Source of the DNA: Odontesthes bonariensis
Taxonomy: Eukaryota; Chordata; Actinopteri; Atheriniformes; Atherinopsidae
NCBI RefSeq assembly: GCF_027942865.1
Contig: NC_134516.1
Location: 17,411,822 to 17,475,821, forward strand
Length of the DNA stretch: 64,000 nt
Reading direction: 5' to 3'
The notes under the pieces were generated by a model. That model saw only the letters and a list, made by a program, of their open reading frames with translations, had not been told where the DNA came from and did no database searches. Positions 17,401 through 52,622 of the stretch are shown here, one piece after another (within the stretch, counting starts at the first letter, position 1; each line of letters begins with the position of its first letter). The position numbers and the translations under genes were made by a program.

Positions 17401-20400
17401 GGAGGAAAATCTTCCACGTGTTTTCTGTGTTAAGCCGCTGTAGGTTAACAGTTTGTGGGTTTCTTTCTTCCTCAGTGGCTGGAGTGGCATCCTTGTGCTC
17501 CGGTGCTGCTGGCAGGAACAAACGACGGCAATGTGTGGATGTGGAAGATCCCCGGAGGAGACTGCAGAACATTCCAGAGCTCTGCGTGTCAGGCCACTAA
17601 CGGCAAAGTCCTCCCTGATGGTGAGAGACGGGAGAAACGGGACTTCTCATGTCGGAGTGATTTAAAGTGCAGAAAAGCCACAGATTAATTCAGTTTGTCA
17701 CGGGTGAACACACACGTTATCTAATACTATCCGAACTGATGTGGAACGATAGATGGGAGTCTGGGCTCTATGGGGAGGGATGAGTGATTTAGTAATATCG
17801 GAGTAAAACGACACGGCCTTCACCAGTTTGCCATTTTGCTGCTCGTGCTTGTTTTCGCCCATTCATCCTTGATTTGAAGTTCTCTGAGCTTTGGGAAAGA
17901 GATCGTGTACAGTGCTACAAATAGAAATGTTCCCGTGTTTTCTTCAGGTAAACGGGCTGTGGTCGGTTATGATGACGGAACGGTGCGCGTGTGGGACTTG
18001 AAGCACGGAAATGCCATACACGTCATTAAAGGTAAACTGGCACAGTTCTTGACCATTAAAGTCAATGATTACAGAATTCAATCCTCGAATGCACGGCAAT
18101 CGCATACAAAGACAAATAAGCATGTATTTGGAGTGAGTAGTTAAAGAAGCATGAAAAGCCCTGAATTTAAAACACTTGATCAAAGCATTGTTTGAAGTTT
18201 TAATGCCAGGTTGTCCTTTGATAGGTCAGGATGGCCACCAGGGGGCGCTGACCTGCCTGGCATGCAACAAGGACGGCTCTCTGGTGCTGACGGGTTCAGT
18301 GGATGGCTGTGCCAAACTTATCAACACTGTCACGGGCAAGGTTGGCACCATGATTACACCGTGTAATAGAGATGAACGAGGAAGAGTTGTTTAACAGCTT
18401 CTGATGTCCGTCCTCTTGTGTGAAGGTGGTCGGGGTATTCTCGGTGGAGGGAGGCAAAGCAAAAGGATCGAAAGACGAGGAAGAATCCAACTCTGTCGAG
18501 ACCGTGGGATTCTGCAACATGTAAGTTCAAATTCATTGGGAACGTCACCAAGTGTCTGAGATAAAGTATCAAAGAAAAAGCTTTAGAGGGAATTCTGCCC
18601 ATGCTGGCTTCAGTGACTTAAAGGTGCCATGGCATGAAAATAAATGGAGGCTTTTTTATATTTTTATAGGCTTTAGTGGTCCCCTAATACTGTATCTGAG
18701 TTTTATTCCCCAAAATTCTGCCGTGCAGAATTACAGCCAGTCCCAAAAATGAGCTTTCCTTAGGATCCTCAGAATGAGCTGTTTAGTGGGGGTGTGGCCT
18801 TACTTACGCCCGTGGTACCTTGCCCAAATGTTTTGTGAATCGCTATGGCACGTAGATGGCGCGGTAGCCCTATGCCGTCAAACTAGCAAAACCTGTTGAT
18901 ATGAGCTTACTTTGACAATATGACGAACTAGTTACTGAACAACTTTCCTAACACAGTCAAACATCAAGCAAGTGCTACACAAGACACAGCAAAAAAGGCG
19001 TGCGTGAAGGGGAAAGCAGGAGTGAGGATTTTGACATTCTCATCTGATTGCTCTGGTTTGCAAAGATGCACGTAGCGCTAGCGCTGGAACCATGAATGAA
19101 GCATTATCCTGATGAAATGCACTGAATTTGCAGATTCATTCTTCTTCAGGAAGCTTGAGTCGGGGGTTTTGGTCTAAAATGAGCGAGCTAACCATCTCAT
19201 GGGCATGCAAACACCTCCAACAGCCCAGTTGACAGAGATAAGAGCTTGCAGATGCTATTAGCTGCATAGCTAACTGTTAGCTAACGTTAGCTGCTAACGA
19301 TACAAACCCTTTGTTGTGGTAACAAGCTATGTAACTATACTGTACATACAGGAAAGCAACACAATAATAGAGCATTAAATGACTTACTCGGGAATGAGAT
19401 CCTTCCCCAAGTGAGGGGCGAATGGAACAGGAGATTGACAGACGGATCGGTGCGGTGTCTGCAGTGATGCGGGCTCTGCACCGGCCCGTCATGGTGAGAA
19501 AGGAGCTGAGCCAGAAGGCGAAGCTCTCGATTTACCGGTCAATCTATGTTCCAACCCTCACCTATGGTCATGAGCTGTGGGTAGTGACCGAGAGAACGAG
19601 ATTGCGAATACAAGCGGCCGAAATGAGTTTCCTCCGCAGGGTGTCTGGGCTCTCCCTTATTGGGCTCGGTATTGGCCCAAGTTCTGGAAACATTCGTCTG
19701 TGAAATGTTTGGCGCACACACAAATCTCTTCGGTTCTGTCGTCACTTTCCCAGAAAAAACAAAACCTGTCTACTGGCTCTTTAGAGGTTCTGATGCAGGA
19801 GCTCTAAACAGATTTTTTACATCCATGTACAGCGCAATGAGCTGGCCAAAGAGCTGTGGGCGGGGAAAGGCAGTTTTGGCATAGCCATATATGGGCTCTG
19901 GGTGGAAACAACCTCCACGTCATAAGTGGCACCCACGTCATAAGAGGCAGCTTTCCCGATCAGGCCATCTGCATGGTCACATTTCCAAAGGCGGAGAATA
20001 ATTTCCATTGCATGGTTTAAGTCTATCGTCATTTTTAGCCACTGGGGGGCCGCAGGCAGGCTAGAGGAACTCATATTAATGTTAAACAACCTTAAAGAGT
20101 GAAAATTTCATGCCATGTCTCCTTTAAATGTTTCCTCTCTGTTATCCTTCCCAGCCTGCCTCTCATAGCCGTGGCTTACTTGGACGGGACTCTGGCCATA
20201 TATGACCTCTCAACACAGGTTCTGAGACACAGGTGCCAGCATGAGGTAAAAAAAACAGAAGGAACCTGGACAGCTTGGGAGTGCTTGTGTTTTGTGTTCA
20301 CTTGTCCATATTGTAGCACCCAGCAGCCACCTCCTGTGGAACGAAAGGAGGTCTAATTGTGTTAATGTTGTCCAGTTAGGAAATACATTTTTTTTTAAAT

Positions 20401-28340: not shown

Positions 28341-28824
28341 GTAAAAAAAAGGATATTAATATTTAAAGGATATCAACAGCTAGTTCACGTTAAAGACAAA
28401 TATCCCTTTGAAGCAACTTGCAACGTGAGGCTTTAAAAGCTTTAATCAAAGTGTATCACATGAAATGCAGTTAGTTAATTCAGCATCTGCCCTTGCAGAG
28501 TTTATGAGGTGCATCATTACTGATTCAATCTCTTCCTGTTTGGTTTCACAAGAAAGTGACTCCGCACCACTTTCTGTGACATTTTCTCCTGAATCTCATT
28601 TTGCATCGCCGCTTAATTTGGCTCCTTTTCCTGCAAGCCTCTGTGTGTCTCTTTGAAAAAGAAAAGTTAACGAACCACAAGTTCCTGAAACACGTTTACA
28701 AAAGAGATCTCTGTTGATCTGATAAAAAGTGCTCACAAATCCAGATGATGGGGTTTTTTTGTGGCTGCTGATGCTGTTTGTTCTCCCCTGTAGGGCAGCT
28801 GCACCTTCATAGAACTGGCTCCAC

Positions 28825-29877
28825 ATGAAAAAGAAGCATCAGACTTCACGCACGATGGACCACAAGGACTCTCACGCTCTGCTATCTCAGGAGCAGCTCA
28901 TTTATGCCATCACCGTGCCGCTGTCAACGTCCATCATCCTGGCCAACCTCGTCATCATCTTGGGCATCTCCTGTAACCGCCAACTCCACAACACGCCCAA
29001 CTACTTCTTCCTCAGCCTGCTAGTGGCTGACATGTGCACGGGCGTGGCGCTGCCCTTCATCCCGTTCATGGCTCTCAACCGGCAGTTGAGTTTTAGCTCC
29101 TGTCTGGTGGCTCACGTATTCCCAAATTTCCTCTTCTTGGCATTTTTGTTTAACCTGGCAATGGTGCACTACGAACGCTACATTTGCATTGCGGACCCTC
29201 TGCGTTACAATAACCTGTGGATGCATCGCAGTTTTCCTTTAGCCTTGATTGTAGTGTGGACGCCACCACTTTTGTATGCATCTCTTCCAGCCTTTGGCTG
29301 GAACAATTGGACAGGGCCAGACTGGAACAGCTGTTGCGAAAGTACCAAGAGCTTCTTGCAACTTTCAAACTGTTCAATAAATGGGAGCACCTGCTGCTCC
29401 TACAGACGGGTGTTCCCCAACGCTTTCATCTACTTGGAGGTGTATGGAATCGTTTTACCTGTTATTATCATCATCGCTGGCATGACTGGCCGTGTTTTGT
29501 GCATCACCCGAGGTCAGCTGAAGCACATCTGCCGCCTCCACCGCGCGGTGGAGCGAGGAAGTCGGGCCTCAGACCAGGAGCAAAGGCTGAACCTGCGGTA
29601 CACTCGATGCGTGGTGGCGGTGTCGCTGACCTTTCTGGCCTGCTGGGTCCCTTACCTCATTTACATGCACGTCTCCACAGCGTTCTTAATCAGTGACACC
29701 AAGTGGAGCATCACCACCATCATCGTGATGTCCTGCACTGGTATCGGAAGCATGGCTGTGGTGCCGCTGGTGCTCGGCCTGGCCAACAGGCAGTACACAG
29801 AGCCCGCATACAAACTTCTCCGGAAACTCAGAGACAGGTGGAGAAGGACACGGGAATCAGAGGAGACTGGATTGTGA
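28825..29877 (+). CDS. gpbar1: G protein-coupled bile acid receptor 1 (TGR5-like), single coding exon
   Basis: A 350-aa class A GPCR. Family members sense bile acids at the cell surface and signal through Gs and cAMP. Seven hydrophobic segments are visible: about residues 26-48, 60-82, 93-118, 138-160, 200-224, 268-292 and 300-320. TM3 ends in ERY rather than DRY, as in the mammalian receptor. The hallmark stretch LPAFGWNNWTGPDWNSC in loop 2, followed by YLEVYGIVLP in TM5 and LGLANRQYTEP after TM7, supports gpbar1 over other lipid GPCRs. Possible N-glycosylation sites are NWT, NCS and NGS in loop 2. The start could be Met1 or Met11 (MDHKDS). A plausible splice acceptor (CCCCTGTAG, ending at 28793) lies just upstream, which suggests a separate 5' UTR exon. 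Position downstream of aamp in the same orientation agrees with the human block. Confidence 0.9.
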   Translation: MKKKHQTSRTMDHKDSHALLSQEQLIYAITVPLSTSIILANLVIILGISCNRQLHNTPNYFFLSLLVADMCTGVALPFIPFMALNRQLSFSSCLVAHVFPNFLFLAFLFNLAMVHYERYICIADPLRYNNLWMHRSFPLALIVVWTPPLLYASLPAFGWNNWTGPDWNSCCESTKSFLQLSNCSINGSTCCSYRRVFPNAFIYLEVYGIVLPVIIIIAGMTGRVLCITRGQLKHICRLHRAVERGSRASDQEQRLNLRYTRCVVAVSLTFLACWVPYLIYMHVSTAFLISDTKWSITTIIVMSCTGIGSMAVVPLVLGLANRQYTEPAYKLLRKLRDRWRRTRESEETGL

Positions 29878-32513
29878 AAGAATGGTCTATAATCTAAATA
29901 TTTATTAAGTATATGGAGGTATCACGGGAAACACTTTTTTAATTCAGATTCTAGCGGCTTCTTAAATGCTGAGAAATATTTATTTATAACAGCTGTTGTC
30001 TTCCACAAATTGTCTTTTAAATTGAGGTTTTAAACCTGTTTGTGCTTAACTTATTGTCATTATAAAAGACAATAAGGCATGTTTTCAAGCTTGGATCAAA
30101 GAGACAAGGTTGAGTAGTGCCACCAGAGGGTGGAGGTAGAGGCACCTATAAACATGGCTGGGATAAACAAAGTTGAGGGTGCACAAATTACAAACTCATA
30201 CTAAAAACCTAACATGAAAGATACATAACCAGTTCTCTGAACCATATTTATCAAATTTTTTTAAGTGTGCATGTATCGTATGATTATTATTTCGTGTCAG
30301 TTCGACCATTGTTCTTTACTTTACAGAAACAGTTGTCATTGGAATGTTTGCTTGCTTAAAACTTGGTGTATCTCCATCTCCAACGTTTATGTGCATCAGC
30401 TCATTTTGGAAGAGGCAAAGACCATCTCAAGTAGGTTTAATCAAAATTTAGAACAGTTCTTTCACATTTTGTTGTTTCATTTGGCTTTTTTGAAGCGATA
30501 CTTCCATATCCTCATAAAAACATTTATGCAATTAGAGGGTTTTCAGCCACGGCATCATAGTTCAACACACAGTAACACAAAACCACTTTACAAAAGAAAA
30601 ATCTTTCGTAATTTCATGGTTGGGTTTATGTAATTTAACCAGGTAAATCTGCCAACATCCCATCAATGAACAGCATTTTCACACTTCGCGCACACTTGGA
30701 TTAATTACTGATTCTAAGTCCCTGCAAGAACAAACCAACCAGGGAATCGGTTTTGGGAGGAGTCTCATCTGTAACCTCACAGGATAGAGAACATGTTCAG
30801 TTGGCAGGTGCTAAAGAAATATCAGTCACTGCACATTAATCATTGTTCTCCACAATCAATTGCTTTCCACAAATGAGCAGCTCTGCCAAATGTAAATCAA
30901 GCAGTAATCAGTTGCAGAAATAATATCTTTAAAAATAAATATTTTTCTGGTGGTCTGAAGATTCAACACATTTGCCAGCAACCCTGTGGCGAATTACGCA
31001 CTCTGTAACTTTGAGCCAAAAGCCGATGTCAGCTTTGCTCAGCAAGTGTAATCCAAATGTATCCACATTGTACATCCTATAAATAGATGTCAAAGACAAA
31101 AAATGATATCCTCATCTGTCATTGTGCTGCCTGCTCAGAACATCACTTTAACAGGCTGCAGATTGTTTTTGCTCGTCAACCTCCCCACCTTGCATGCAAT
31201 GTTTACTCCTACTTCCTTCGCTGGTGTTTATCTATATTCTGGTATGCAAGCTACAGAGGGGAGAGGGCCAGAGGGAGAGCCCGCAACACGATTAGCCCCC
31301 TAAATAAGAGCATGCAGGGGAGACAGAGAAGGTGAAAAATGGGTTTGCATAAACAAGTTGGATATGAAAGTCAACAAAGTTACGAGTTTCTATTTTTCTG
31401 AAAAATTGTAATAAAATGTTTCCAGTTTTAAATTTGATAAAAGTAGTCCTTGCAGTCCTCCAATCCTTGTCTTTAAGGACTATAAGTTTTATGTCCTGTA
31501 AAGCCCATTCAGTGGAAATTAGCTTTGTGTTTGAGGCCTGATTAAACACAGACTATGTTGTGCAAGATAAACCAATAAAGATGAAGTGGGTTTTAAATGT
31601 GTGCCTCTTGTATGGGGGTGGAAACAAGACAGCACACAGGCAGAGACAAGCTCAGGATGATAATCATGTTTAATCGCATTAAAGAGCGAACAAGGTCTGA
31701 ACAATTGGGACATTAGGAGAGCTGGGGTCAGGAGATGTCTGTCTTGCCATGTTCTCGTACGTTTTCCACATCGGAATATCACGCACATGTGTATTTGTCA
31801 AGAAGACGGAGGAGAACCGGGAGAAGGGGAGGAGGGAACAGGATGAGATTGTGCGCAATCATTTCTAAAATGTCATCCATGACTGTATGTGTGTGTGTGT
31901 TTGTGTGAGAAAAAAAGAAAGTAAGAGAGCAGCTTCATTAGTCATTTGGAATTTTTTTCATTGCCAGTAAACCTTGTAATCTAATTTCTTGGTATTCATT
32001 TGGCGGACATGAGGTAAAAAGTTTCACAGACACGCACGCGCCTGCGACAAAAAGCTTCTTCTCTACAAGCATTATCTTTGTATACTTTCAACAGAACAGA
32101 AACACTCCTTTAACTGCAAGCTGAAACCCCACGAGGTCCTTGTTTTAGGATCCTTCTCTTGGCTGGTTTTCAGTTTGACAAAGACACAATCCCGTTCAAG
32201 ACATTAATGTTTGAGGGAAACATCAGCAAGGAACATGAGAGAAGACAGCGAAACACCAGAAGGCTGTAAACTAAGGTAGGAAAAAAAAAAACAAAGCTCA
32301 AAGTAAACTGAATCGATCAATCAAAGATTTGAAGAAAACATTCAAAACTGCCACAAAGCTGCTGTTGGACGTTCACTCTACCAGAAGGCACACACAACAA
32401 AAAGAGTATGACTGTTATCTCAAACCTACTTGGGACACTCAAATAATTTAATTTAAATAATTTTGATTAAATATTTCACATTTTACAGGTATATATTCCA
32501 ATGACGCAGTCAA
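29878..32513. other. Intergenic stretch between gpbar1 and the type II filament gene
   Basis: It contains AT-rich sequence, a short TG run near 31887-31907 and several chance open frames. An ATTAAA on the minus strand at 32447-32452 could serve the type II filament gene. No gene was recognised. Confidence 0.45.
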
Positions 32514-35500
32514 TCAGTCACTGTAATGGGAGCTTTCGGACACGACTCGGCCGGATTCCACCTCCACCCGGATCAGCAGGCGCTTCTTGGAGAAGGGGAA
32601 GGCTGGAGGGGTAATAGTGGTGTCTGGTGATATGCTGGTTGCAGGGACATTGTTGGGCTGTGCAGCTTGTGTCTTCTCTGGCGGGGGAACGTCTGCATGC
32701 AAGCAAGGACTTGGATTGGTTGGTTTGTTTTTAGAAATCTGAGCAAAAGAGATGTTTGACTTTAGTGGAGCACAAAACATCAATGAAGCCTGAGAATGCT
32801 AATGCGTGATCAAATGGATACTTTGTGTTATATCCATTTATTTTTAGGTCCTACAAATATTTATACACAAGCTTCGCGGAAGCGTCGGACGGCTTACATA
32901 TATAAAGATATATATTTTATTAATCTATTTGGCAGTTTCATTGAACTTTTGGTGTCTTGTGTCCTTTAGCTGAAGTTCTTGATTTTGACTTTTAAGCCAC
33001 TGAATTTTCATCCTCAAACTAAGTATTAGAATTGGATACATCATTCCTTGAGCCGTTGGTTTTCATAACGTTATTGAGGCTTTATTCGTGTAGACGTTGA
33101 AAAAAAAAAAACAATCATACTTTCTGAGTGGTTTCCAACTTAAGGCTCAGAAATCCCACAAGAGGGCGCAAGGGTTCAAGAAAATGATTAGAAATAACAG
33201 AAAAACTATCAATTATCTTCACTTCTTCAAAGTTGCAACCCCATAAAACTATGCGTGTCAGCAAAACAACACAGAAATATCAGGTACATATGTCAAATTT
33301 AATCTAGGTTTTTCAGAACTGTTCATTAAAGAAGCTGTAGTAAAAGGCTCTCACCTGTTTTGCGCATGAAGTAGTTCATTCTTCAAAGAGACAGAATAGA
33401 GACAGTGAGTGCGAGCATTTAAACATGTTAATCTTACACATTGATGTGCTCTCACTCCCCTTATTTATGCCGTTACAAACCTCTGCTCCTCGCCCTCCAG
33501 CAGCTTGCGATAGGTGGCGATCTCGATGTCCAGGGCCAGCTTGAGGTTCAGCAGCTCCTGGTGTTCACGAATCTGCTGGGCCAAGTCCTGCCTGTTCTGT
33601 CTTAAGGCCTCCTTCAGGTGGGTGATGTGCTCTCGGTATTTTTTGAGGTTTTCTTCGCTGTCTTGTCGAACCTCATCGATGTCCCTCTTCAGAGAGTCAT
33701 CCTGAAGAGGTGAACAGAGATAGAGGATCAGCAGCTGGTAGGATAGTTGGTATGGGTGCAGATGCCTAAATTCGGTGTGTTTCGGCTTGAAGCTCACCTT
33801 TCTCTTCAAGTTTTCCAGATCTGCTTTGAGCCTCTGGATGTGACGCACGGTGTCGGAGATGTCCCTTCTTATGTCCCGCACGTCTTGTTCACGCTGTCCA
33901 GCAGTTAAGACCATGATATCCACCTGAGTGGAAGAGTAAATCGAATTATAACATTTATCTAAGATTGACAGACAGATAGAAATAAAATAAAAATAAAAAA
34001 TTTAAAAATTTAAAAAATATATTTTTGAATAAATACAAAAATTAAAAAAAAATTAAATTAAATTTAATTTCTTTTTAAATTTAAAAAATATAAAAAAAAT
34101 TTAAAAAAAAGAATAATAATTTTTAAAATTAAAAAAAAAAGGATTGACAGACCTCTTTTTTTTTTTTTTTTTTTTTTTTAAATCTATCACTCACCTTTCT
34201 TTGGTTCCACTGCTCCGCTTCTTCTCTGGTGCGGTTGGCCATGTTGGCATACTGAACCTTGATGGTCTTGACGATCTCTTCCATGTCCAGGGACCGTGTG
34301 CCGGTGTCGCGGAGGGTCACCGTCTGATTCTGGACCTGCGACTCCAGCTCCTTGATCTCCTGCAGGGGGCAGACACGAGGAGAATTGCAGGTTGGAAATA
34401 ATTCTTTGTTTCCGTAGCCTTCTCTCAAGCTAAATCTCTGTATGTCATTACCTCATCGTAGCCGACCCTGAGGAAGTCCATCTTTCCCATTAGGTCCTCC
34501 AGTTCCAGGGCCAGCTCCACAGTTGCCAAGTGTCCTTCATCCACCGCCTGTTGTCCAAATTTTACACACACGTATGAATGCGAGTACTGAGATTAAAGTG
34601 ACAACTTTTTTACTTTGTTTCTTAAAGCCTTGATAAAAACAAGCAGCATAGGCAGTCTCCAGTACCTTTTTGGTGACGACAAAGTCGTTCTCCAGCTCCA
34701 ATTTTTTCTTCAACACATCCTCGTAACTGCAACCAGTTACATATAAAGGGTTGGGAAATGAAGTTTTTGACATATGTAACATTTGGACTTGTCTGGTTGT
34801 TTAAAGCTGAGACAAACAGATATTAAAGAAGCAGAACATGGAATAAATGTAGCTTTTGTATGTGACCTGCTGACCTCTTCCTGGTGTCTTCAACCTCCTG
34901 CTGGTTCTTTTGCAGCTCATCTTTCAGTTTCTCTTGGTCTTGGAGTAAGGTGTCGATCTGCTGCTGCAGCTCATTGCCCACCTGCTTCACGATGTCGTCC
35001 ACCTTTGCACCGTAGTCCTCCTGCTGCTTGAGGATGTTGAGTTTCGTGTTGAGCTTCTTTTTCTCGTTCTCCAGGTTTTTCACCTTTAACGGAGACAAAC
35101 TTGAGGCGTTGAATAGAAATACAAGAGGGAATTTTGCGCCAAAACTTTTGCTGCCGTGCCTTTTTGTCTCATTTGTCGGGGAAAGGAATGTACACACTGA
35201 GGTAAAAATGTGTAATGTGTGGAAAATAGTGTGTTATACTCAAAAATCAACCGCGCAGCTTGACTTTGAGGCCTTGGTCGTGGTTTATTGTTAACCCTTT
35301 CAGGCATCAGGTTAAAAGTTCTCTAATTGTTCCACAAGGTGGCGTCCTAGATTTACCTTCAGCAACCTGGAGCAAGTACAGATAAGCTCACTTTCCATGG
35401 CCTCAGGTAAAAGAAAATTTTAACAGGGCTCTTGAAAATTGGTTTTACAGTCATTGTATTGTTCAAAAGATTTGCACTGTGATTTTGCACTGTTTCAAAA

Positions 35501-35974
35501 GAGCTAAAAGCAGCACTAAATCTGTGCTTAATTTATGCAAAAGATGCGCAAACATATTCAATCTTTCATATTTTTTTTATAATTTTCTTATAATTAATAA
35601 TGTTGATCAAATATTATACAACTGTGGCTACTAAAATAGAGAAATAAAAAAACCTAATCTAAAAAGAATAATTTAAAAAGCAATAGAATAATGATTTTTG
35701 AAGTGTTTTTGTCTTTAATGTGATTTGAATTAATTTAAACATACATTAATTGCTGCTTCATTCGTTTTTTCAAGCAATTTGCCATATGATATAGTATATA
35801 AAGTTATTTACAAACCTTGTCAATCAACTGGACGAACTTGTTATTGAGCCCAACCATATCCTCCTTCTCCTTGGATTTACCCGACGAGTCGATGGCTTTG
35901 GGCGGTTGGCTTTTAATTGGTCCCCCGCTGCCGGGGTTGTACGTCTGGCTGCTGTAATCTTTTGGTTTAGACAT
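32514..35974 (-). CDS. Type II keratin-like intermediate filament protein, thread-keratin-alpha candidate (9 exons)
   Basis: Coding exons, 5' to 3' on the minus strand: 35974-35816, 35083-34875, 34726-34666, 34547-34452, 34359-34195, 33923-33798, 33701-33481, 33380-33355, 32692-32514. Sizes 209, 61, 96, 165, 126 and 221 nt for exons 2-7 are the classic type II keratin pattern. Total 1,242 nt, 413 aa. The head is short (about 37 residues) and lacks the Gly/Ser loops of epidermal keratins. The rod starts EDMVGLNNKFVQLIDKVKNLE and ends with a canonical helix termination motif (LALDIEIATYRKLLEGEE). The tail is about 70 residues, Pro/Thr-rich. It should pair with the type I protein encoded in the opposite direction. 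Identity as the teleost counterpart of hagfish thread keratin alpha is inference. A divergent krt8-type keratin is the main alternative. Confidence 0.85.
33965..34180. repeat. AT-only low-complexity block in intron 5 of the type II gene
   Basis: The block is almost entirely A and T with scattered AAATT and AAAAATT units, ending in a T24-type run just before exon 5. It is probably expanded simple sequence. Confidence 0.8.
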
Positions 35975-36359
35975 AGTGAAGCCTGTTAACCGGAGCTGAA
36001 GTCTATCTGAACAGGTGAGAGGCGAAGAAGACACCTAGCCCCATGGGACACCTGCTTTTTATGGTGGACGGTACCACCCATCACCTCCCCAAAACTGTGC
36101 GCGCGCCCAATCAGAAGGGGACAAGTACGATGATATGGAGAGAAAATTGAAAAGGTCAACATGAAATACTTGAATTTCAGCTCGGTACCTGTTTGACCAG
36201 GAGTGGGGCTTGGATCCAAGAGCCAATGCCATCACTGGGGCGGATGTGAGCGCAAACAGCGGGTATAAAACTCACCTGTATCCTTTGCATCCATCTGGTG
36301 ACTTTCGAACCTGAACAAACGCTCTGTGCCACCGTCAGCTCTCTCAACCAGCAGCAAAA
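35975..36359. promoter_or_regulatory. Shared bidirectional promoter region of the filament gene pair
   Basis: Only 385 bp separate the two start codons. TATAAAA at 36264-36270 faces the plus gene and lies 90 bp before its ATG. CATAAAAAG, read on the minus strand at 36055-36063, faces the minus gene and lies about 80 bp before its ATG. The two putative core promoters are about 200 bp apart, with CpG-containing sequence between them (GCGCGCGCCCAATCAG near 36099-36114, which includes a CCAAT box). This arrangement suggests joint regulation. Confidence 0.7.
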
Positions 36360-39300
36360 ATGCCAACAAACAGCAGCGCCAGCATGTTTGGTGGAGCCGG
36401 GGGAAGGGGCTCCAGGGTGTCCGTGGCAAGCCTGGAGGGGCTGCGTAACGTGCTCCGCAATGAGACTGAAAGAGATTCCGCCCCGGTGACGCAGGCGGCC
36501 CCTTTGCGCACCGCGTCTCCGGCGCCTGCCGCTCCTGCCGCCGTCCCCGCGGACGACAAGCAGACCATGCGCGGCCTGAATGATCGGCTGTCCGGATACC
36601 TGGACAAAGTGAAGCAGCTGCAGGAGGAAAACCAAGATCTGGAGAAACAGATCGATGACATCTTAGCCAAGAGGAAAGCACCCGAGGGTCGCGACTGGGA
36701 TAAAATCCAGGAACCCCTGAACGAGCTCAAGAACCGGGTGAGTTCTAAAAGAAAATAATCTCTTTGTTTTTTCTTTTTTTTTTTGCATTCAAGTGTTTGT
36801 GGTTTTCTTACGTGATTTTCTATTCATCTTCTCAGATGAAAGACATCACCACAGACAACGCAAAGCTGCTGCTTATGAATGACAACACCAAGCTGGCCAA
36901 TGAAGACTTCAAGAACAAGTGAGTATCCTGCCACAGCAAAACATTTCTGGTGAGTTTATGGATCACTGTTGGGTCCCCCCCTCCTGTCTGCAGGCTTGGC
37001 GATGAGATAAAGGGAAAGAAGGAGCTTGAAAAAGACGTGGAGAATCTGAAGAAGATCAACGAGGACATCAAACTGGGCCAAGATCAGATGCAGAAAGAGA
37101 TCGATCTGGTGAAGGATGAGCTGGCTCGCCTCAAGCAGGAACACCAGGATGTGAGGCTGGAGACCAACACTTCCCAAGTTTGCACACTTGTACTTCAAAT
37201 TAGAGGCAAGCATATAAGTGTGGTTTATTGCAGGAGGTGGACGATCTGCGTGAGAAGATCAAGAACTCCGAAGTGAAGGTGGAGATGGAGCCCCAGAACT
37301 CCAACCTGCATGAGATTGTCAACAACATTCGCGTGCAGTATGACAAAGTGGCCCAGAATAACCTGAGGGAGACGGAGGATTGGTACAAGAGCAAGGTAGT
37401 ATCTGAACGCCACTTTTTTATCTCGATCTACACTCCTGCGTCCATCTCACTGCCTCCATCATGTCCGCCCTCCCACCTCCCATAGTTTGATAACATCAAG
37501 GTGGAGGAAGCCCAAAACGTTGAGGCCTTGCAGTCTGGGAAGTCGGAGCTCAAGGAGCTGCTGAAGCAGAAGAAGATTCTGGAAATTCAGATTCAGACAG
37601 AGCTCAGCAAGGTAACCGCAAACAAACACACACACACACAGGCTTTTTCAAACATAAACCGTCAACATTTTTCATGTGTTTCACAAAAGCGCTTCTTCTG
37701 GACATGGACAAATACTTTGCTTTAAGATATCAGCACGATAACACCGCCTGCAGGGCTGTTTGTCTCCCGGTCGTCTTCACAGGCATTCCTGACTTGTCTG
37801 TCATTACACTGTAAAACCGCTTATTAAAACCACAAAAAAAAAAAACAACACATCCTCGAGCCATCTGGATGCGCTGTTGCAAAGCAAAACAAACTATCAG
37901 CATGAGGCATTCTTGATAAGTCCCAGTGATTTCTGTGCTTTGATGTCGCGCTTCTTCTGGTTTACTCCCCAAAGACGAAACAAAGTCCAAAGTCAGTTTT
38001 CTGTCTCGCCGTCAGATCCGCGCTCGGGAGGACTCTCTGAGGAACACCAAAGCAGAGTACGGGCAACAGCTGGGCCCGCTCAGCCAAGTGATAGCTGACC
38101 TGCAAGCAGAGCTGAAGGAGGTGAGGTCGCAGGTGGAGCTGCAGTTGGAGACCAACAAGAACCTGCTGTGTGTCAAGATGAAGCTGGAGCAGGAAATCAA
38201 CAGCTACCAGGAGCTGATCCACGGCATATGTGCTGATGCTGACAGGTGAGGATGCTCTGAGGTCAGTTCCCCAGAGGGCTGTCAACTCCTATATACTTGA
38301 AAACATCCATAGTGTCTTTATGTGTAAATTTTAATGTGTGTAGCGTTTTTTTTTTTTAGGATCTTAGATCTTCTATAATTTGCAAGTCTGCTTTTATGAT
38401 ATGCTCCTGAAAGTGTTTAAAGGAATGGCATTACAAGAGCCGGTGCGTTATTTATGCTTTTCTTCCCTGACAGCTTGGAGTTTGCTTTAGAGGATGTACT
38501 GCACAGTGGTAAGTTCTGAATCTGGCTTGAATAAGACACCGGATCCAATAACAACAAACCTGACCACTTGATTGAAGTTTACCTGAAGTTTACCTTGAAC
38601 CTGTTACCTTGAAGCTTTAATCAGTTTTAATCAGCTTTAATCCAAGCAAGCTTGGCCGGTTACTGATTGATAATGTTATCGGTTTAATCTGATTGGCTCC
38701 TATCCAAAGAAAGCAAACAAGCAAAAAGATGACTAAATAAAACAATGACTGTTTAAAGGTGTAAGCAGTATGACTGATGAGATGGAGAGATTAATTAACC
38801 AGACACAGGCCCCAAATGTCCAAGGGTTTCGTATGGAGTTTGGTCTTGTGCCAAGTGATAGGATTTGTAACACAAAAGAGGCGTGAACGAAGAGCTGCGC
38901 GATGACGGGCCATGAACCGGCCACACAGAGAGACAACATGGCAGCGAGGAGGTGCATAATGTCCAAAACGAGACACACGGCGACACAAATGAACACAAAG
39001 ATCCACCAAAAGATCCATATGAGACGCAAATTGAGACAAAAAAAACGGATCAAAATGAGAGTCCCCAAAAATGGAGCAAAAAAAAAAAAAAAAAAAAGAG
39101 ACAAAGAATTACTAAATGTACACATAGACAATCAAATGAGGCACAGAACAAAAAAAGATAATTATAATTATAGAAAAATATCCGAAGGCGCACATTTGGA
39201 GACACAAAACAACCGTAAATTGTATTGTGTTGATATGTGGTTACTTTGTGTGGTTTTTTTTTCCAAGTCTTTGCCCAGAGGTGTTGTTTCATAATCCATC

Positions 39301-40052
39301 CATGTCTGATGATGTTATTTACACCTTACAGTTGTTGGAGCTGAGTGCAGAGTTGAACACAAAACCCTCTCCGTATGCCATTTTTGGTTAAAGGAGTAGT
39401 TTTGGGAAGTCCGCTTATTGACTTTCTTTCTTAGGGTTGGAAGAGAGGATGGATGAATAAGCTCATTTCCGAAATGTCAAAACTGTTCCTTTACAGCTAA
39501 TCACGTCACTAAACTGCTTTAAGTCGCCGTCACCCTGTAACTGCATGTAATCACAACCTAATTTTAACACTCGTGGAAATAAAAAAAAAAAACGTCATAG
39601 AATTTTTTCAGATGTGAATCAAGCTCAAAAAGACGGATCTTTTATCGGCTCTGGCGGAATCAAACAGTGCTTACGAGAAAGCCGAAGCTCATTTAGAAAC
39701 GTGTAAAAACAAATATATAATAATCTGTTTCATCTTTGTGTTTACAGATCAGCAAAAGCCTGAGGACAATCAGGAGGTGGTGAAAGAGGAAGCAGCACTG
39801 AAGGCAGAAAGCGCTCCCTCTAACAAATCAGCTCCCTCCAAGACTCCCGAGGAGGCCCCTGCTGAGGAGGAGCAGGAGGCGGCTGCAGCCAACAAGGAGG
39901 CTGCTCCAGTCAGCAAAAAGTCAGCTAAAAAGAAAAAAAGAAAAACGTCCAAAGCGAAGAAGGATTCATCCTCTTCTTCTTCTTCCTCCTCCTCTTCATC
40001 TGAGTCAGAGAAGGAAGACAAAAAGCCCAAAAATGAGGGCGAAGAAGCTTGA
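36360..40052 (+). CDS. Type I keratin-like intermediate filament protein, thread-keratin-gamma candidate (8 exons)
   Basis: Coding exons: 36360-36737, 36836-36918, 36994-37150, 37234-37395, 37486-37611, 38016-38245, 38474-38508, 39748-40052. Sizes 83, 157, 162 and 126 nt for exons 2-5 are the classic type I keratin pattern. Total 1,476 nt, 491 aa. The head is Ala/Pro-rich. The rod begins MRGLNDRLSGYLDKVKQLQEEN, a good type I helix start. Its end (MKLEQEINSYQELIHG, about residues 360-375) departs from the usual EIATYRRLLEGE motif. The tail, about 110 residues, is unusual: Ala/Glu-rich, then a Lys cluster (KKSAKKKKRKTSKAKK), then a run of 12 Ser, then acidic residues. It is presumably the heterodimer partner of the divergent type II gene. 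The thread keratin gamma assignment is inference. Confidence 0.85.
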
Positions 40053-40162: not shown

Positions 40163-40168
40163 AATAAA
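40163..40168 (+). other. Polyadenylation signal of the type I filament gene (AATAAA)
   Basis: AATAAA lies 111 nt after the stop codon, in the expected place. Confidence 0.75.
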
Positions 40169-40210: not shown

Positions 40211-40484
40211 GAACATGCAGCATCCATTTACACACCATTCAATTCAATTCAATTCAGTTTTATTTATAGAGCGCCAAATTACAACAAATGTCATCTCAAG
40301 GCACTTCAATAACACAGTCCAATTGAAGCCAATTGGGGTTCAATTCATTGTAATCATAATCCAATCAAATCCTATTCCTTAGATTCAGAATGAATCCAAT
40401 TCACACAGAACGCTTTTATAGTCAGTAGTAGACTTCCTCAGCGCATCAGTTACATGGAAATATGAGTTCACACATAAAGCAGAT
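40211..40484 (+). repeat. Direct repeat copy A (86 bp, split by a LINE tail)
   Basis: Segments 40211-40235 and 40427-40484 match 41124-41148 and 41152-41209 exactly or nearly so. In copy A they are separated by a LINE tail that is missing from copy B. Confidence 0.85.
40236..40426 (-). mobile_element. LINE/SINE 3' tail with (GAATT)n, reverse orientation
   Basis: (ATTCA)n is followed by GTTTTATTTATAGAGCGCCA, the reverse of the family seen at 330-455. Comparison with copy B at 41124-41209 shows the insertion site directly, between CACAC and AGTAG. Confidence 0.8.
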
Positions 40485-41116: not shown

Positions 41117-41123
41117 CTTGACT

Positions 41124-41209
41124 GAACATGCAGCATCCATTTACACACGGGAGTAGACTTCCTCAGCGCATCAGTTACATGGAAATATGAGTTCACACAT
41201 AAAGCAGAT
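41124..41209 (+). repeat. Direct repeat copy B (86 bp, uninterrupted)
   Basis: The uninterrupted form of copy A. Together A and B flank the unclassified repeat copy 1. Confidence 0.85.
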
Positions 41210-41429: not shown

Positions 41430-43065
41430 CAGTGCATTCGGAAAGTATTCAGACCCCCTTCAATTTTTCACTATTTGTTATGTTGCAGCCTTATGTTAAA
41501 ATCATTTAAATTAATTTTTTTCCCCGTCAATCTACACTCAGCACCCTATAACGACAGCACAAACACAGAATCATAGAAATTTTTGCAAATTTATTAAAAA
41601 AGAAAAACTGAAATATCACAAGAACTTAAGTATTCAGACCCTTTGCTCAGTACTTAGTAGAGGCACCTTTTTGAGCCAGTACAGCCATGAGTCTTCTCGG
41701 GAATGATGTCACAAGTTTTTCACACCTGGATGTGGGGATTTTCTGCCACTCTTCCTTGCAGATCCTCTCCAGCTCTGTCAGGTTGGATGGGGAACGTTGG
41801 TGGACAGCCATTTTTAGGTCCCTCCAGAGATGTTCAATTGGGTTTAAGTCAGGGCTCTGGCTGGGCCATTTAAGGACATTCACTGACTTGTTCCTAAGCC
41901 ACTCCTGCGTTAATTTGGCTGTGTGCTTTGGATCATTGTCATGTTGGAAGGTGAACCTTCGGCCCAGTCTGAGGTCTTGAGCACTCTGGACAAGGTTTTC
42001 ATCCAGGATATCTCGGTACTTTGCAGCGTTCATCTTTCCTTGAATCACAACCAGTCGCCCCGTCCCTGCAGCTGAAAAACACCCCACAGCATGATGCTGC
42101 CACCACCATGCTTCACTGTTGGGATGGTATTGGGTAGGTGATGAGCAGTGCCTGGTTTCCTCCACACATACCGTTTAGAATTAAGACCAAATAGTTCAAT
42201 CTTGGTCTCATCAGACCAGAGAATCTTCTTACTCACAGTCAGGGAGTCCTTTTGGTGTTTTTTTGCAAACTCCATCGGGCTTTCATGTGTCTTGCAGAGG
42301 AGAGGCTTCCGTCTGGCCACTCTGCCATATAGCCCAGATTGATGGAGGGCTGCAGTGATGGTTGTCTTTCTGCAACTTTCTCCCATATCCACACAGGATC
42401 TCTGGAGCTCAGCCAGAGTCGTCTTTGGGTTCTTGGTTACCTCTCGCACCAAGGCTCTTTCCCCCCCCGACTGCTCAGTTTGGCCGGACGGCCAGCTCTA
42501 GGAAGAGTCCTGGTTGTCTGAAACTTCTTCCATTTGAGAATTATTGAGGCCACAGTGCTCTTAGGAACATTAAGTGCAGCCTGAATTCTTTTGTAGCCTT
42601 GGCCAGATCTGTGCCTTGCCACATTTTTGTCTCGGAGCTCTTCTGGCAGTTCCTTTGACCTCATGGCTCTCATTTTACTCTGATATGCACTGTGAGCTGT
42701 AAGGCCTTATATCGACAGGTGTGTGCCTTTCCAAATCATGTCCAATCAATTTAAGTCAGCACAGATGGACTCTAATGAAGGTGTAGAACCATCTCAAAGG
42801 TGATCAAAAGAAATGGACAGCACCTGAGTTAAATACGTGAGTGTCACAGCAAAGGGTCTGAATACTTATGTTCACATGATATTTCAGTTTTTCTTTGTTA
42901 ATTAATTTGCAATTTTTTTTTAAATTCTGAGCTTGTGCTGTCGTTATAGGGTGCAGAGTGTAGATTGATGGGGAAAAAAAATAATTTAAATGATTTTAAC
43001 TTAACGGTGCAACATAACAAATGGTGAAAAATTGAAGGGGGTCTGAATACTTTCCGAATGCACTG
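41430..43065 (-). mobile_element. Tc1/mariner transposon, complete ends, broken transposase
   Basis: The outer ends CAGTGCATTCGGAAAGTATT and its reverse complement at 43046-43065 are flanked by TA on both sides (41428-41429 and 43066-43067). Each terminal repeat is about 200 bp and holds a second inner copy of the TATTCAGACCC motif (about 41631-41642 and 42853-42870). This is the IR/DR structure of Sleeping-Beauty-like Tc1 elements. The total length of 1,636 bp is normal for the family. Confidence 0.95.
41647..42673 (-). pseudogene. Tc1 transposase with two frameshifts
   Basis: The N-terminus starts at 42673 with a paired-type helix-turn-helix region (HRSGQGYKRIQAALNVPKST). The frame changes at the C8 run at about 42460-42467, and again in a G run at about 42087-42092 (MLWG then CFSAAGTG). 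All three DD34E catalytic residues are still visible in their separate frames: WSDET, HDNDPKHTA and NPIEHLW. Both lesions are single-base changes in homopolymers, so this copy died recently or contains sequencing errors. Confidence 0.9.
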
Positions 43066-46700: not shown

Positions 46701-49700
46701 CATGGCATGGTCGATTAGCAGATTCTATTGAACTCAGAGCCGTCCATGCTGACTTCCTGCTGACTGGGGAGGGTAAAACAATAAGCAAAACATCTAACAA
46801 CCACTTCAGTTATCTGATGTGTGATCAGAGGTTTGAACAGACACTAACCACATGCCACATTGATATGAGGAGCTAATTAAAGGATCACTGAGGGTGGCCG
46901 AGCAAGTAATCCTAAAGCAGAACCTTTGTTTAAACTCACTAGTGGCTGGTCTCTTCACCAAGGAACAGGTGAAACAGATAGTGGAACATACCATTACAAC
47001 GGAGGACCTCTGTGGTCTGTCATTAGAGTCAATTTCAGTTTCTCAGATTCCTTCTTAATTTTCACTTAGCTGTGGCGGACCATCCCAAAGTTATGACAGC
47101 AGCCACGGCATCTCGTGAGGTCAACAAACTCCGTCTCCATGCCAAAAAAATGACACTTAAAACTATTGGCCGATTGATAGAAAATAAATTCAGGTAAAAA
47201 AATACAACTGGATCAGCAACTTAGAGGTAAGACATACAAAACAATATCTAATTCAGTATCTCAAAGTCCTTATTTAAACTTTTTATTCTATTATTATTAT
47301 TCTAGGGTATTTTAGAGAAAGTTATTCAGATATTAAGCCTTGGTAGAAGCAAACTCACCTTTGAGCACTTTATGTGGTAGTGCAGGTAGTCCCTGAAGGT
47401 GTGGATGAGGTTGATGGTGTTGTCTCTGGCATTGGCATTGGTGTGTCGAGGGAACAGGACTGAAAAATGTCAAACACAGAGCATATACATAAAATTGCTA
47501 AATAAGTTGTGTTATCATAAGCGGGTTGGGTCGGGGGGGGGGTGTATGCCAACTGCATTGCACTGACCGAAGGTGATGTATCCAATGTTGTCCCCAACAG
47601 CGGCGTCTGTGTCCTTCAGCTCCAGAGGAGGCTCCCTGTGGCTGAAGAGCACCTGGGGAGCTGTGTGGCTGGCCCTTCGACCCTCTTTGAACTCCTACAC
47701 GCAGAAAGAAGCTTGGATTAGTCAATAGCAAACTGTAATCATATAAATTATTATAGCAAATGATTAATTATAGCAGTAACTTACAGTACATAGTACTTTA
47801 CAAGCACCAATTCCTTACAAAAGCTAATAACAACCAAGGAAATATATCTAATGTACAATACATTCATTAATTAATCAATTTATTGATTTACAAAAAAAAA
47901 AAAAAAAAAGTGACTTTCCCCCATTACAATCATTAGCATAATAGCTACTTAGCTTACTTGTGTTAGCCACCTAGCTAACATGGATTACGGTAACTTGGCT
48001 AACTAACCAACGAACTACATTAAGCATGCATCTGAGTGCTCAGCAAGGTCTCAATCATCGGGATACCTGCATTCCTGGGCGTAACCTTGGGCATTCTTAC
48101 GGTATTCACAACCTAGTCACAGATTTAAACACTGCATCTTTTCAAAGATGCTCGGAGTGCTTCAAAGCAGCCTTGCCTCAATCCTGAATGATGACAGGGC
48201 TGCGAGCGCATTTGACCTCCCTCACCTGCATGAAGACTTTGCCGATGATGACGTCATCATCATCTTTGAACACTGTGCTGAACACCACGGTCACTCTGTC
48301 TTTCTTGGCCTCTACGTACCTGTTGTGGCAAAAAAATAAATAAATAACCCTTTTGAGTTTAACGCCTTCAAAGAAATGAGGATTACCAAATAGTGCTTAC
48401 AATGCAGTCAAAGTCCCTTGTAACTTCTTGAGAATCTCTAAAGGTTTCTTAGAATGCTATATCAGTATATTCATCAGTAAAATAAAAGGACCTTGACTAT
48501 TTGAAACCAATCTAACATCACGTGACTTCCTTTGACATTTGAAACTTAAAAGTTTGAAGCCTGACGCACATCGACTCATCGTCTCTGTAGTGGACAACAG
48601 CCCTCGACTCGCCCTCTTTGCCTTCCTCCTGGAACTTGAAGTACTTCTCAAACACCGAGGCGAAGCAGTTCCTCTTGAGCATCCCCGCCTGGTGGACAAT
48701 CTCGGCTTTATTGGCTGGTAGAGCGTCCAGGTCGTAGAGGAGGGACACGTTGTAGCCTAAAAGGAAACCGGTCAGAAACCAGCAACGTTTTTATTGAATG
48801 GTGGTCACAACTTTCAATTTCTTCACTCTGACTGATACATTCATTCATACCCGACATCAAAGATGACAATCTACATAAAAAGAATTTAAAAAAAGAAGCT
48901 ATTAGTCATTTCTAGAAGGAGATCGGTAACATTGTGAGAACTTACCGGACTCTGGTGAAACCAGGAAAATCCCATAGATCCTCTTGAGCAGCTGTAATTA
49001 AAAATAAGACCGTTAGATCACAGCTCTCTCAGTGTGGTTTCTAAAAGTAGCACGTCACAGAAAAGCCACAACACGCGGGCAATAGAAAAAAGAAACAAGA
49101 ATATGAGCTTAAAAGTCAAATCTTATTAGAGAAAACACCATCTAATTATTCTAGTTGAGGTTTTTCTGATCTCTTTGATTTTCACAATGCTCGACACTTG
49201 GCTGATTTCACAGCCGGTGTGAATTTGAAGCAAGAGACTTACAGAAATGTCAACAATTATAAGAGCTTTGGGGCAGGTTTACAAACTCGGAATTCTGTGG
49301 AGGTAATTGAAGGGGGGGGCTTCGTCTCTAATAGATACCTGTCAGTCTGGGGCGAGCCGAGGTGCACTGCTGCAATATGCAAATCGGACTCAGGTATGAA
49401 AATAATACACCGTGCTTTTTAAACTGGGCATTCTTTTAGGGGGGAAAATATGTGACCAAACCGTCAATTTGGCAAAACAACTCCCGAAAGACTTCCGAGG
49501 GGTAGAATAAGTGAATGTGCCACTGTTGAGCCATTCACTTATCCCTCTGCTCTTGAACTTAATGGAACGAGGAGGGAGGTGGTTGGATGGCAGCCAGTCC
49601 ATCAACACACAGTGTCTGCTGCTCGCAGTCAGCACTTCCGCGCCTGGGGTGAGTCACACAAACTCACTTCCTGTTTCTGCCAGAAGCCTCAGCAGCTGCT

Positions 49701-52622
49701 TTCTTCCTTAAATGGCCACAGAGCGCTTGCAGTGTAACGGTGTGTGTGCTGAGTGCAATGATGACCTTTTCCGTCTTAAATCATCCGGGATTGACGGCAA
49801 ACTGCAGTGTACATCAGTCACTACGGCATTTTTTCCTACTGACAATGTTTGCATAGTAGTAGCTGTGTAAGATTGCAGTTCCCAGGTGCAATGTAGGTGA
49901 ACTCGAAAGTACACAATGCACCAACCGTTTACCTCTGTGAGGTGCACGAGCGGTTTATTTTGACACAAAAGGAACAGCTTATCAGGCACCTTTAAGGCAT
50001 TTCAATTCGAGTTTAAAAACCAGAACCATTTTGGTCACTCGACACACTAAAACCATCACGTGAGACGCTTCTTGCTGGGCTTGGCGAGGCTTCTGTATTT
50101 TAAGAACTACAAATAAATCCACCACGAAAACACTTTCCATACCGACTGCGTCGCCTCCTCCTATGTTTTACCTCGTCAGCTCCATGCTCCTGCAGCTCCT
50201 TGTAGAACTTCAGGGAGATGCTAACCATCACTTTGGTCTTGTCCCCATTGGGGTTGGAGATGTGGTACAAGACGCCATCGAAATCTGCAGGAGTAAGGAA
50301 CAGTATTAGTGCCTGCCAGGTGACAAATAAAGCTCCTGAGCCTTTTTCACCTAGCATCTTGGCACACTGACACGTTACCGGCTACAGGTTGGCAGCGTAA
50401 CTGGAAAGTAATGACCAGATTTTGAGGCTTAAAACAATTAAAAACACACAGAAAGTGCGCTTTATCTAAATTTGGTTGTCCGTTGGAGGCCTTTAATCGA
50501 TCGATGCAAAGTTATACGTGCCAGATGATATTATGATGACGATATATATCTAAACTGCAGACAGGAACACCCTGATGATGTAGCTGCCCCGCTTCAGATG
50601 CTATCAGAATATTCAAAGTCTATCTAAACCTAGAGCTTAGCTAAGCTAAAATAAAATGAAAAAAAAACTATTTTTATTGATCCCTTAAAAGGAAATGATG
50701 AACTAAACTCTGAAACCGTGCAGTGCAGTCAGAACACAGAAGAGCTGCGAGACAGTTCTCACCTGCAAAGGTCACATCGACGGCCTCTGGTTTGGTTCTG
50801 TGGAGAGAAATCAAAATGAGGAAACGGACGTAATTTGCCATGGACCAACAATCGGCATGTGAGTGACGCAATACAGATAAGCCCCGCATTCATTGTGCTC
50901 TGTTGAACAAAAATCTGCTAAATTAATCGTTTCACTCTTAAGTAAAGAGGCAAAAGATTTCTAAATCAGGGATTTAAATGTAATGCTGACATGAGGGCTT
51001 AAATCAGACACGAAATGCTTGTCGATGATGTCATAAAAATACATGTCGTCGGTAATTTAATAGTATTCTTACAGTCAATTTCGGTCAGTCTTAGCCTAAG
51101 ATTAATACTATCAAAGGCATCATTGCGGCATTTTTTCCCCCGTCATATCTGGCCAAATTCTGATGCTTATACGGCTTAAAACTGAAACATGCCCGCAGTG
51201 TTGCTATTGCCATGACGATAACAAGAGAGGAAAGCTATATTAGATTTATATGATATCACTGAATATGGTAAGTGCCTCGTGATAAACGTTTGCTGCCACA
51301 GCAGAGGGAGGAGTATAAGGTGGAAAATTACTTGTAAAGCAGAGATGGAAATAGGACACTGCTATCAGTTTCGTTCGGCTGTTTTTATAAAGCTGGATGG
51401 AGAGGATTCCAAGGATGATGCTTAATCATCGTGGTCAGAAGAAATTATTAGGCTACAATCAGGGGATAAAGGAGTAAGTGTGACAGGACCAATAAAGATT
51501 CCTTTTATTTTGGAGGATTTGCCGCATATGTTTTCAAGCTTTTATCCACTAAAATGAATCTTTTTAGTCAAAGGCTTCAAATTCTATAGTGCTCAAAGAG
51601 GGCTTTTCTACTTTAGCCAAAGCGCCATATAAGGAATGTGCTGAAGTAAATGTGCACTTCTAAGGTGGATGCTGCAGCTACTTGTTCGAGCTGCATACTG
51701 TTTATGGCCAAAGCAGCAGCTGCTCCTGATGCAGACTTGACTCAGCTTGACTACAGGAATGCGGAAGCAAGAAAGAGCTATGGTTATTTGACATGTAGTC
51801 GCTAAATGGTTGCGTTGTACGGTGGGAAACCACATTTAAAAAAAAAAGACCTTTATAAAAGGTGAAAACGCCTGCTTTGTACGAAATTGTCAGAGTTAGT
51901 TGGTTCCCTGTAGTTTAGTGAGTAATGACGTGAGGAAGGAACATCAGACATGTTGACAAACTTGGTTCAAAATGTGTCACCGGCGGTGGACCGAGGCTTA
52001 ATTGCATTACTAGAGTAGGTGGAATTTCTTTAGTAGAGCCATTAGCGGATGTTTGTAATTCCATTTCCCAAAACCAGTGTGGTCTCTCTTAATTACACAC
52101 GAACGAAATAGCTGCCAACGCTGGCTGGATTGCGGTCGGCTAGCTATTTTACTGCCCAGACGATATATTTTTAGAAACTCTACTCTTAAGTTATATGGCC
52201 AGCTGTAGCAAATTTACCAAAACATTGAATTTTTTTTTAAACTTGCACGTAACGCAGGAGAAGCACCAGAGGGGTACGTTTCAATGAGATTACAATATCT
52301 GACATGGCACGGCCAGAGCAGACACACCCCAGCTTGAGGCAAAGCAGCCACAAAGGACCAAGCAGCCAATTCAACGTGAAAACTGAAACGTATTTATATC
52401 CATTAGGAGTATAAAGCGGCAAAGTCCCGTGCTTTGAGCGTTTATCAGCCGCAATTTTGAACCCGGCAGTCCTCTCCAGTAAATGCTAAAGGGGAAGCTA
52501 GCTGGCTGACGTTAGCAGTGCTAGCCAGGTGTAACAATGATCTCTCACCCGTTGGACGCGCCGTCGAACTTGAGCGTCAGCGTCTCTTCTATGATGCGGT
52601 TATTGATTTCTAACAGGATCAT
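43713..52622 (-). CDS. arpc2: Actin-related protein 2/3 complex subunit 2 (ARPC2, p34), 10 coding exons
   Basis: Core subunit of the Arp2/3 complex, which nucleates branched actin. ARPC2 forms the central scaffold with ARPC4. Coding exons, 5' to 3' on the minus strand: 52622-52549, 50797-50763, 50284-50172, 48991-48946, 48756-48570, 48319-48226, 47694-47568, 47459-47359, 46690-46590, 43734-43713. The sum is 900 nt, 299 aa (human 300 aa). All introns are GT-AG and in phase. Recognisable stretches are [106 protein letters not shown] and [31 protein letters not shown]. The last coding exon has only 22 nt (SGKTFSR and stop) and lies 2.86 kb from the previous one. Intron 8 holds a repeat and intron 9 a Harbinger relic. 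Confidence 0.95.
44234..45779. mobile_element. PIF/Harbinger relic in the last arpc2 intron
   Basis: The inverted ends are ATGGGCCTCATGCAACAA (left) and ATGGGCCTCATGCAAAAA (right, reverse strand). The GGGCCTCATGCA end is of the kind seen in fish Harbinger elements. Remains of a Harbinger transposase lie inside. No clear 3-bp target duplication remains. Confidence 0.8.
44686..45187 (+). pseudogene. Harbinger transposase remnant, frameshifted and internally deleted
   Basis: Three frames carry consecutive pieces: [18 protein letters not shown] (from 44686), [22 protein letters not shown] (from 44843) and [17 protein letters not shown], then NEGLHLNQP (from 45097). The central catalytic part between GARDTYTH and [11 protein letters not shown] is missing, roughly 100 residues in intact relatives. 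It cannot be active. Confidence 0.8.
46717..47187 (+). repeat. Unclassified interspersed repeat, copy 2, in arpc2 intron 8
   Basis: Closely matches 40661-41116, with about seven substitutions and one A-run change over 455 bp, and lacks the 167-bp segment present in copy 1. It begins 27 bp upstream of arpc2 exon 9 in plus coordinates. Confidence 0.85.
47889..47909. repeat. A-homopolymer in arpc2 intron 6
   Basis: A simple A run of about 19. It has no other visible function. Confidence 0.8.

Follow-up and report, generated by a model that had tools for sequence, protein, structure and literature searches.

Relatives of the thread keratins have been reported in teleosts since 2006, the year of an abstract by Schaffeld and Schultess that is reported to assign a type II structure to thread keratin alpha (TK alpha) genes and a type III structure to thread keratin gamma (TK gamma) genes. 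The alpha and gamma families of hagfish have been described as sisters of the type II and type I keratins, respectively; their orthologs in lamprey and zebrafish are skin-specific, and thread cells are not known in teleost or amphibian epidermis (PMC10005773). A zebrafish survey names si:dkey-183i3.5 as TK alpha and zgc:136930 as TK gamma; the accepted type II genes were mutually closer than to si:dkey-183i3.5, with differing domain details, and similar outlier remarks were made for zgc:136930 and for krt222, the third outlying gene (PMC6778804). A further paper concerns recombinant hagfish thread proteins (PMC9354048), and PMC7867084 and PMC12729654 gave nothing further on teleost thread keratins. 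Here we describe two neighbouring intermediate filament (IF) genes of Odontesthes bonariensis, one of type II and one of type I, which are probably the teleost TK alpha/gamma pair. They were found in a stretch of 64,000 nucleotides of contig NC_134516.1 (positions 17,411,822 to 17,475,821, forward strand), referred to below as the window.

Two complete IF genes lie head to head within 32514-40052, separated by a gap of 385 bp from ATG to ATG. The window type II protein and its rod are called winII, and the type I protein and its rod winI. The pair and its accompanying elements are as follows.

32514 to 35974, minus strand: keratin-like IF gene of type II, a candidate for thread keratin alpha (exon model, Pfam and tree).
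36360 to 40052, plus strand: keratin-like IF gene of type I, a candidate for thread keratin gamma or else another divergent type I keratin (exon model, Pfam and tree).
35975 to 36359, unstranded: putative bidirectional promoter of 385 bp (motif scan).
32447 to 32452, minus strand: candidate poly(A) signal ATTAAA, 61 bp past the type II stop codon.
40163 to 40168, plus strand: candidate poly(A) signal AATAAA, 111 bp past the type I stop codon.

The winII gene consists of nine coding exons (159, 209, 61, 96, 165, 126, 221, 26 and 179 bp) with an uninterrupted open frame of 413 amino acids (aa) and GT/AG splice ends at 8/8 introns. Eight coding exons make up the winI gene (378, 83, 157, 162, 126, 230, 35 and 305 bp), which has an uninterrupted frame of 491 aa and GT/AG ends at 7/7 introns. 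The Pfam Filament domain covered the whole rod in each protein (winII residues 35-346, E 1.7e-70; winI residues 66-372, E 3.3e-63), and the one further match in the winII scan was to TACC_C, another coiled coil, which fell below its cut-off. A tblastn comparison of both proteins with the whole window (E up to 0.01) yielded nothing but the two genes themselves and three weak cross-hits from one to the other. A first-pass annotation of the window had described two complete filament genes at this locus; the frames, splice ends and Filament matches bear this out, and the rebuilt models reproduced exactly its exon sizes, its end coordinates (the last bases of the stop codons) and its 385-bp spacing of the start codons (35975-36359).

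Intron 5 of the winII gene contains an A/T-rich repeat tract (33995-34138). After the type I gene, two copies of a dispersed repeat with the common words GAACATGCAGCATCCATTTACACAC and CTTCCTCAGCGCATCAGTTACATGGAAATATGAGTTCACACAT were recognized by eye (40213-40480 and 41122-41200), followed by pieces of a transposase, Tc1/mariner-like by eye, at 41650-42497 (minus strand). The piece at 41650-42174 (minus strand) matched DDE_3 (2.6e-15), and that at 42048-42497 was read by eye.

Intron positions were mapped as column and phase on a rod alignment of winII and winI. At columns 91, 144, 199 and 241 the introns of the two genes coincide in column and in phase, an agreement that is not chance. Introns at columns 21 and 112 are present in the type II gene only and the intron at column 64 in the type I gene only, a contrast that is a known difference between the two types. 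The winII gene shows the exon pattern 209-61-96-165-126-221 of type II genes, and the winI gene shows the 83-157-162-126 pattern of type I genes, with no 61/96 intron.

A tree of 10 rows was built from the winII and winI rods, pieces of vimentin, GFAP, K1, K5, K10 and K14, and K8 and K18, the last two being provisional sequences for the tree and the identity figures alike. In this tree winII joined K1+K5+K8 (100/99) and winI joined K10+K14+K18 (100/100), and placement with vimentin+GFAP was rejected for both by the P value of the approximately unbiased test (p-AU 0.0103 for winII and 0.00023 for winI). The pair is one type II and one type I IF gene, and the complementary types claimed at first pass are thus supported by both exon structures and tree. 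A type III filament, related to desmin or vimentin, was ruled out by the same two lines of evidence; lens filensin/phakinin was also considered and was set aside provisionally.

Comparison with solved structures (E up to 0.001) gave 24 distinct sequences for winII, with vimentin best (8.9e-39) and K5 coil 2B next (2.3e-29), and 14 matches for winI, again with vimentin best (7.1e-30) and K14 coil 2B next (1.9e-19). For winII and winI alike the keratin pieces in this comparison are much shorter than the vimentin chain, and the top E-values of the latter therefore do not indicate a closer tie to vimentin.

Both proteins are distant from the keratins sampled. Over coil 2B, winII was 49% identical to K5, 47% to K8, 43% to K1 and 34% to vimentin, compared with 78% for K8-K5 and 66% for K8-K1. 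For winI the values were 38% with K14, 33% with K10, 29% with vimentin and 25% with K18, compared with 61% for K14-K10 and 46% for K14-K18. These low identities uphold the earlier statement that both proteins are divergent, and both have long branches in the tree (1.1 and 1.36). No keratin type II head domain (H1) was found among the Pfam matches of winII at E up to 0.001, which argues for a type II relative and not an ordinary type II keratin; 34 aa precede its Filament match. The whole winII protein has an isoelectric point (pI) of 5.61, so that this type II chain is not basic. It contains no cysteine, and its tail ends in LLIRVEVESGRVVSESSHYSD, which aligns with the tail ends of vimentin and of the provisional K8. 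The whole winI protein has a pI of 5.16, a Lys/Glu/Ser-rich tail and a proline (P119) at about the start of coil 1B. Its coil 2B contains Gly-Pro (P323; window 38073-38078, plus strand), and its helix end reads SYQELIHG (window 38202-38225, plus strand), compared with TYRRLLEG in K14, and departs from the canonical motif; the helix-end and coil 2B sites of these changes are usually very conserved in keratins.

The position of each protein within its own type was less sharply drawn. Constraining K1+K5+K8 to group without winII gave a log-likelihood 0.23 above that of the free tree (p-AU 0.592), and constraining K10+K14+K18 without winI gave a p-AU of 0.137. In the free tree, winII+K1+K5 received only 51/11, winI+K14 63/68 and winI+K14+K10 83/88. 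None of the within-type placements relative to K8/K18 and the epidermal keratins was rejected by these 10 rows (p-AU 0.114-0.592), and a firm grouping inside the ordinary clades, by which the first-pass annotation would be refuted, was neither obtained nor rejected. The pair might be a fast-evolving duplicate of K8/K18 or of epidermal keratins that moved to its present locus between GPBAR1 and ARPC2. K8/K18 is likewise a type II/type I pair, groupings of winII with K8 (p-AU 0.361) and of winI with K18 (p-AU 0.114) were not rejected, and the tail ends of winII and K8 align. KRT18 lies in the type II cluster (PMC8733776). Against such an origin, winII and K8 share 47% of coil 2B positions where K8 and K5 share 78%, winII gave no keratin II head domain match, and the location between GPBAR1 and ARPC2 is itself a point of difference. 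We consider a relocated duplicate improbable.

The assignment as TK alpha and gamma, suggested at first pass and supported in part, was reached by elimination against one zebrafish gene set, in which the outliers are TK alpha, TK gamma and krt222 (PMC6778804). Provided that the gene set of O. bonariensis is similar, TK alpha would be expected of a distant gene of type II-like kind, and TK gamma of a distant one that is type I-like with a full rod; on this argument the window pair is probably TK alpha/gamma. winII is likely TK alpha, and its gene has the type II structure reported for TK alpha genes. The assignment of winI to TK gamma is uncertain, and we treat it as a candidate and not as a filed member of that family. 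KRT222 was set aside provisionally for winI, as KRT222 is shortened and the winI rod is full. Relatives of winII were also sought more widely: no DNA in viral contigs matched the search patterns, and none of the 36 stretches of prokaryote genomes that matched a pattern encodes a relative.

It is also conceivable that winII is TK alpha and winI some other divergent type I keratin, the two still forming a co-expressed pair. The winI gene has type I exons throughout, compared with the type III structure reported for TK gamma, and if that report holds, either winI is not TK gamma or the structure of TK gamma varies; the tree also leans, weakly, to K14/K10. The low identity of winI to the sampled type I keratins speaks for TK gamma nonetheless, as does the zebrafish survey, which names just TK gamma and krt222 as further outliers (PMC6778804). 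A different type I partner is a possible alternative, though we judge it unlikely.

The intergenic region was scanned for promoter motifs. On the plus strand, TATAAAA lies at 36264-36270, about 90 bp ahead of the type I ATG. The minus-strand element, CATAAAA at 36057-36063, about 83 bp ahead of the type II ATG, is merely TATA-like, so that of the opposed TATA boxes reported earlier the plus-strand box stands and its counterpart is a looser match. CCAAT occurs at 36107 and 36223 and GGGCGG at 36238. Of 5000 first-order resamples, 2 contained such a pair of TATA-like elements, placed within 120 bp of both ATGs; as the motif was chosen post hoc, this figure is a rough guide only and not a probability. 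Two unrelated genes could be neighbours by incidental proximity, with uncoupled expression and with the partners of each chain elsewhere, and a minus-strand TATA element that is an approximate match at best would agree with this. However, complementary types that stand head to head at 385 bp and are both divergent make such a coincidence very improbable.

Published expression data bear on the zebrafish genes. For infected larvae, a pheatmap heat map shows the 50 genes that changed most, and its legend lists TK alpha and gamma next to each other, an order that may fit joint regulation (PMC6980646). In addition, zgc:136930 was among the genes lowered after ultraviolet B (UVB) exposure (PMC7341518) and is one of the cornea genes tabulated in a study of pax6b mutants (PMC4334901). 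In stressed fish, si:dkey-183i3.5 was lowered in the telencephalon, as were krt4 and krt97 (PMC6361922).

Taken together, we favor, with moderate confidence, a functional, divergently transcribed epithelial pair that forms heterodimers and shares one bidirectional promoter, most probably the teleost TK alpha/gamma pair. The type II and type I products would most likely be obligate heterodimers that assemble into 10-nm filaments in a skin-type epithelium. The 385 bp region may serve as one bidirectional promoter that holds both chains in step, leading to their predicted co-expression, and orthology with the thread keratins would be likely for alpha and less sure for gamma. A co-regulated heteropolymer pair is the best reading of the locus, with co-regulation and partnership predicted.

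Several observations weigh against this TK alpha/gamma assignment or against a working pair. The winI gene is type I structured, with the column-64 intron present and the column-112 intron absent, and so departs from the type III structure reported for TK gamma. In the tree winI sits loosely with K14 (63%) and K14+K10 (83%) and not outside the ordinary type I keratins, and winII sits with K1+K5 at just 51% bootstrap. The minus-strand TATA element, CATAAAA, is weak. The SYQELIHG helix end and the Gly-Pro in coil 2B of winI could mean altered or weak assembly. Finally, a second survey counts 17 type I, 3 type II, one uncharacterized and 24 non-keratin IF genes in zebrafish (PMC8733776), and as the zebrafish counts differ, the argument by elimination depends on a single paper (PMC6778804).

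The pair sits between GPBAR1 and ARPC2, within an AAMP-ARPC2-CXCR1/2 neighborhood that includes the following features.

28813 to 29874, plus strand: GPBAR1 (bile acid receptor) frame, stop to stop (7tm_1 4.2e-25; best solved match GPBAR1 9.9e-49).
48521 to 52835, minus strand: ARPC2, partial model, outer limits of its pieces (P34-Arc, solved match, by eye).
59543 to 60622, plus strand: CXCR1/CXCR2-type chemokine receptor frame, stop to stop (7tm_1 5.6e-60; CXCR2 1.2e-73, CXCR1 2.7e-72).

The ARPC2 piece at 48521-48790 matched P34-Arc (3.2e-14) and solved ARPC2 (1.6e-33); those at 50103-50381 and 52548-52835 were assigned to ARPC2 by eye, and the latter had no Pfam match. Also downstream of the pair is the first part of a gene of the reduced folate carrier type (3.9e-17). 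WD-repeat exons upstream of the pair, at about 14.6-20.8 kb, were read by eye as AAMP: of three pieces submitted to Pfam, one cleared the WD40 cut-off, a second fell short of it and a third matched nothing; in the comparison with solved structures this third piece hit WD repeats weakly (best 1.7e-4). The AAMP identity is thus a tentative one, based on a translation read by eye. Inside this AAMP-like region, a frame that looks like the C-terminal part of a non-LTR (long terminal repeat) retrotransposon was noted by eye (19398-19700, plus strand), and a long open frame at 3884-6157 (minus strand; RVT_1 3.2e-36) is a probable long interspersed nuclear element (LINE).

We take the order at human 2q35 to be CXCR2-CXCR1-ARPC2-GPBAR1-AAMP, with no IF gene between ARPC2 and GPBAR1, so that the window pair would occupy exactly that gap. 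The proximity of AAMP and ARPC2 to CXCR1/CXCR2 is described for coelacanth and zebrafish, and blocks of this neighborhood are conserved in lizard and on chromosome 2 of human; the word keratin appears 0 times in the main text of that paper (PMC4052464). Human keratins are clustered at 12q13.13 and 17q21.2, with KRT18 in the type II cluster (PMC8733776). The setting of the window pair therefore appears to be the counterpart of human chromosome 2, unlike the human keratin clusters.

The pair might be an ancient further type II/type I couple of the desmin/HOXD block, lost cleanly between ARPC2 and GPBAR1 in amniotes; we regard this as doubtful. The human block with desmin and the HOXD genes is presumably 2q31-2q35. 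If the pair were this old, K8/K18 beside HOXC and the window pair beside HOXD would have arisen as copies in the genome duplications of early vertebrates, a head-to-head co-regulated keratin couple would predate those duplications, and hagfish slime threads would be built from one copy of the couple.

The two genes are of a known kind and mostly ordinary, save for their arrangement and chromosomal setting. In the passages of the literature searched, we found no description of a type II gene and a type I gene, both divergent, that share one short promoter in this conserved block. If the genes are TK alpha and gamma, their arrangement would explain joint regulation in a simple way, offer a synteny marker with which to trace the pair through gar, shark, amphibians and amniotes, and allow the age of a coupled keratin pair to be tested.

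Among known systems, K8/K18 resembles the window pair as a type II/type I couple, divergently oriented in tetrapods. It differs in that the window rods are 45% and 32% identical to the provisional K8 and K18, respectively, over 313 columns, in its chromosomal setting and in that no keratin II head was found in winII. The hagfish slime thread alpha and gamma proteins, compared by description, correspond as sister families of the type II and type I keratins, although teleost and amphibian epidermis has no known thread cells (PMC10005773). Zebrafish TK gamma (zgc:136930) is similar, by description, as an outlying IF gene listed beside alpha, and differs in the type III exon structure reported for TK gamma genes from the type I structure of the winI gene. 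Zebrafish TK alpha (si:dkey-183i3.5, krtt2c21) is likened to winII, again by description, as a type II-like gene far from the ordinary type II keratins and with atypical domain details, in keeping with a winII that has no keratin II head domain match.

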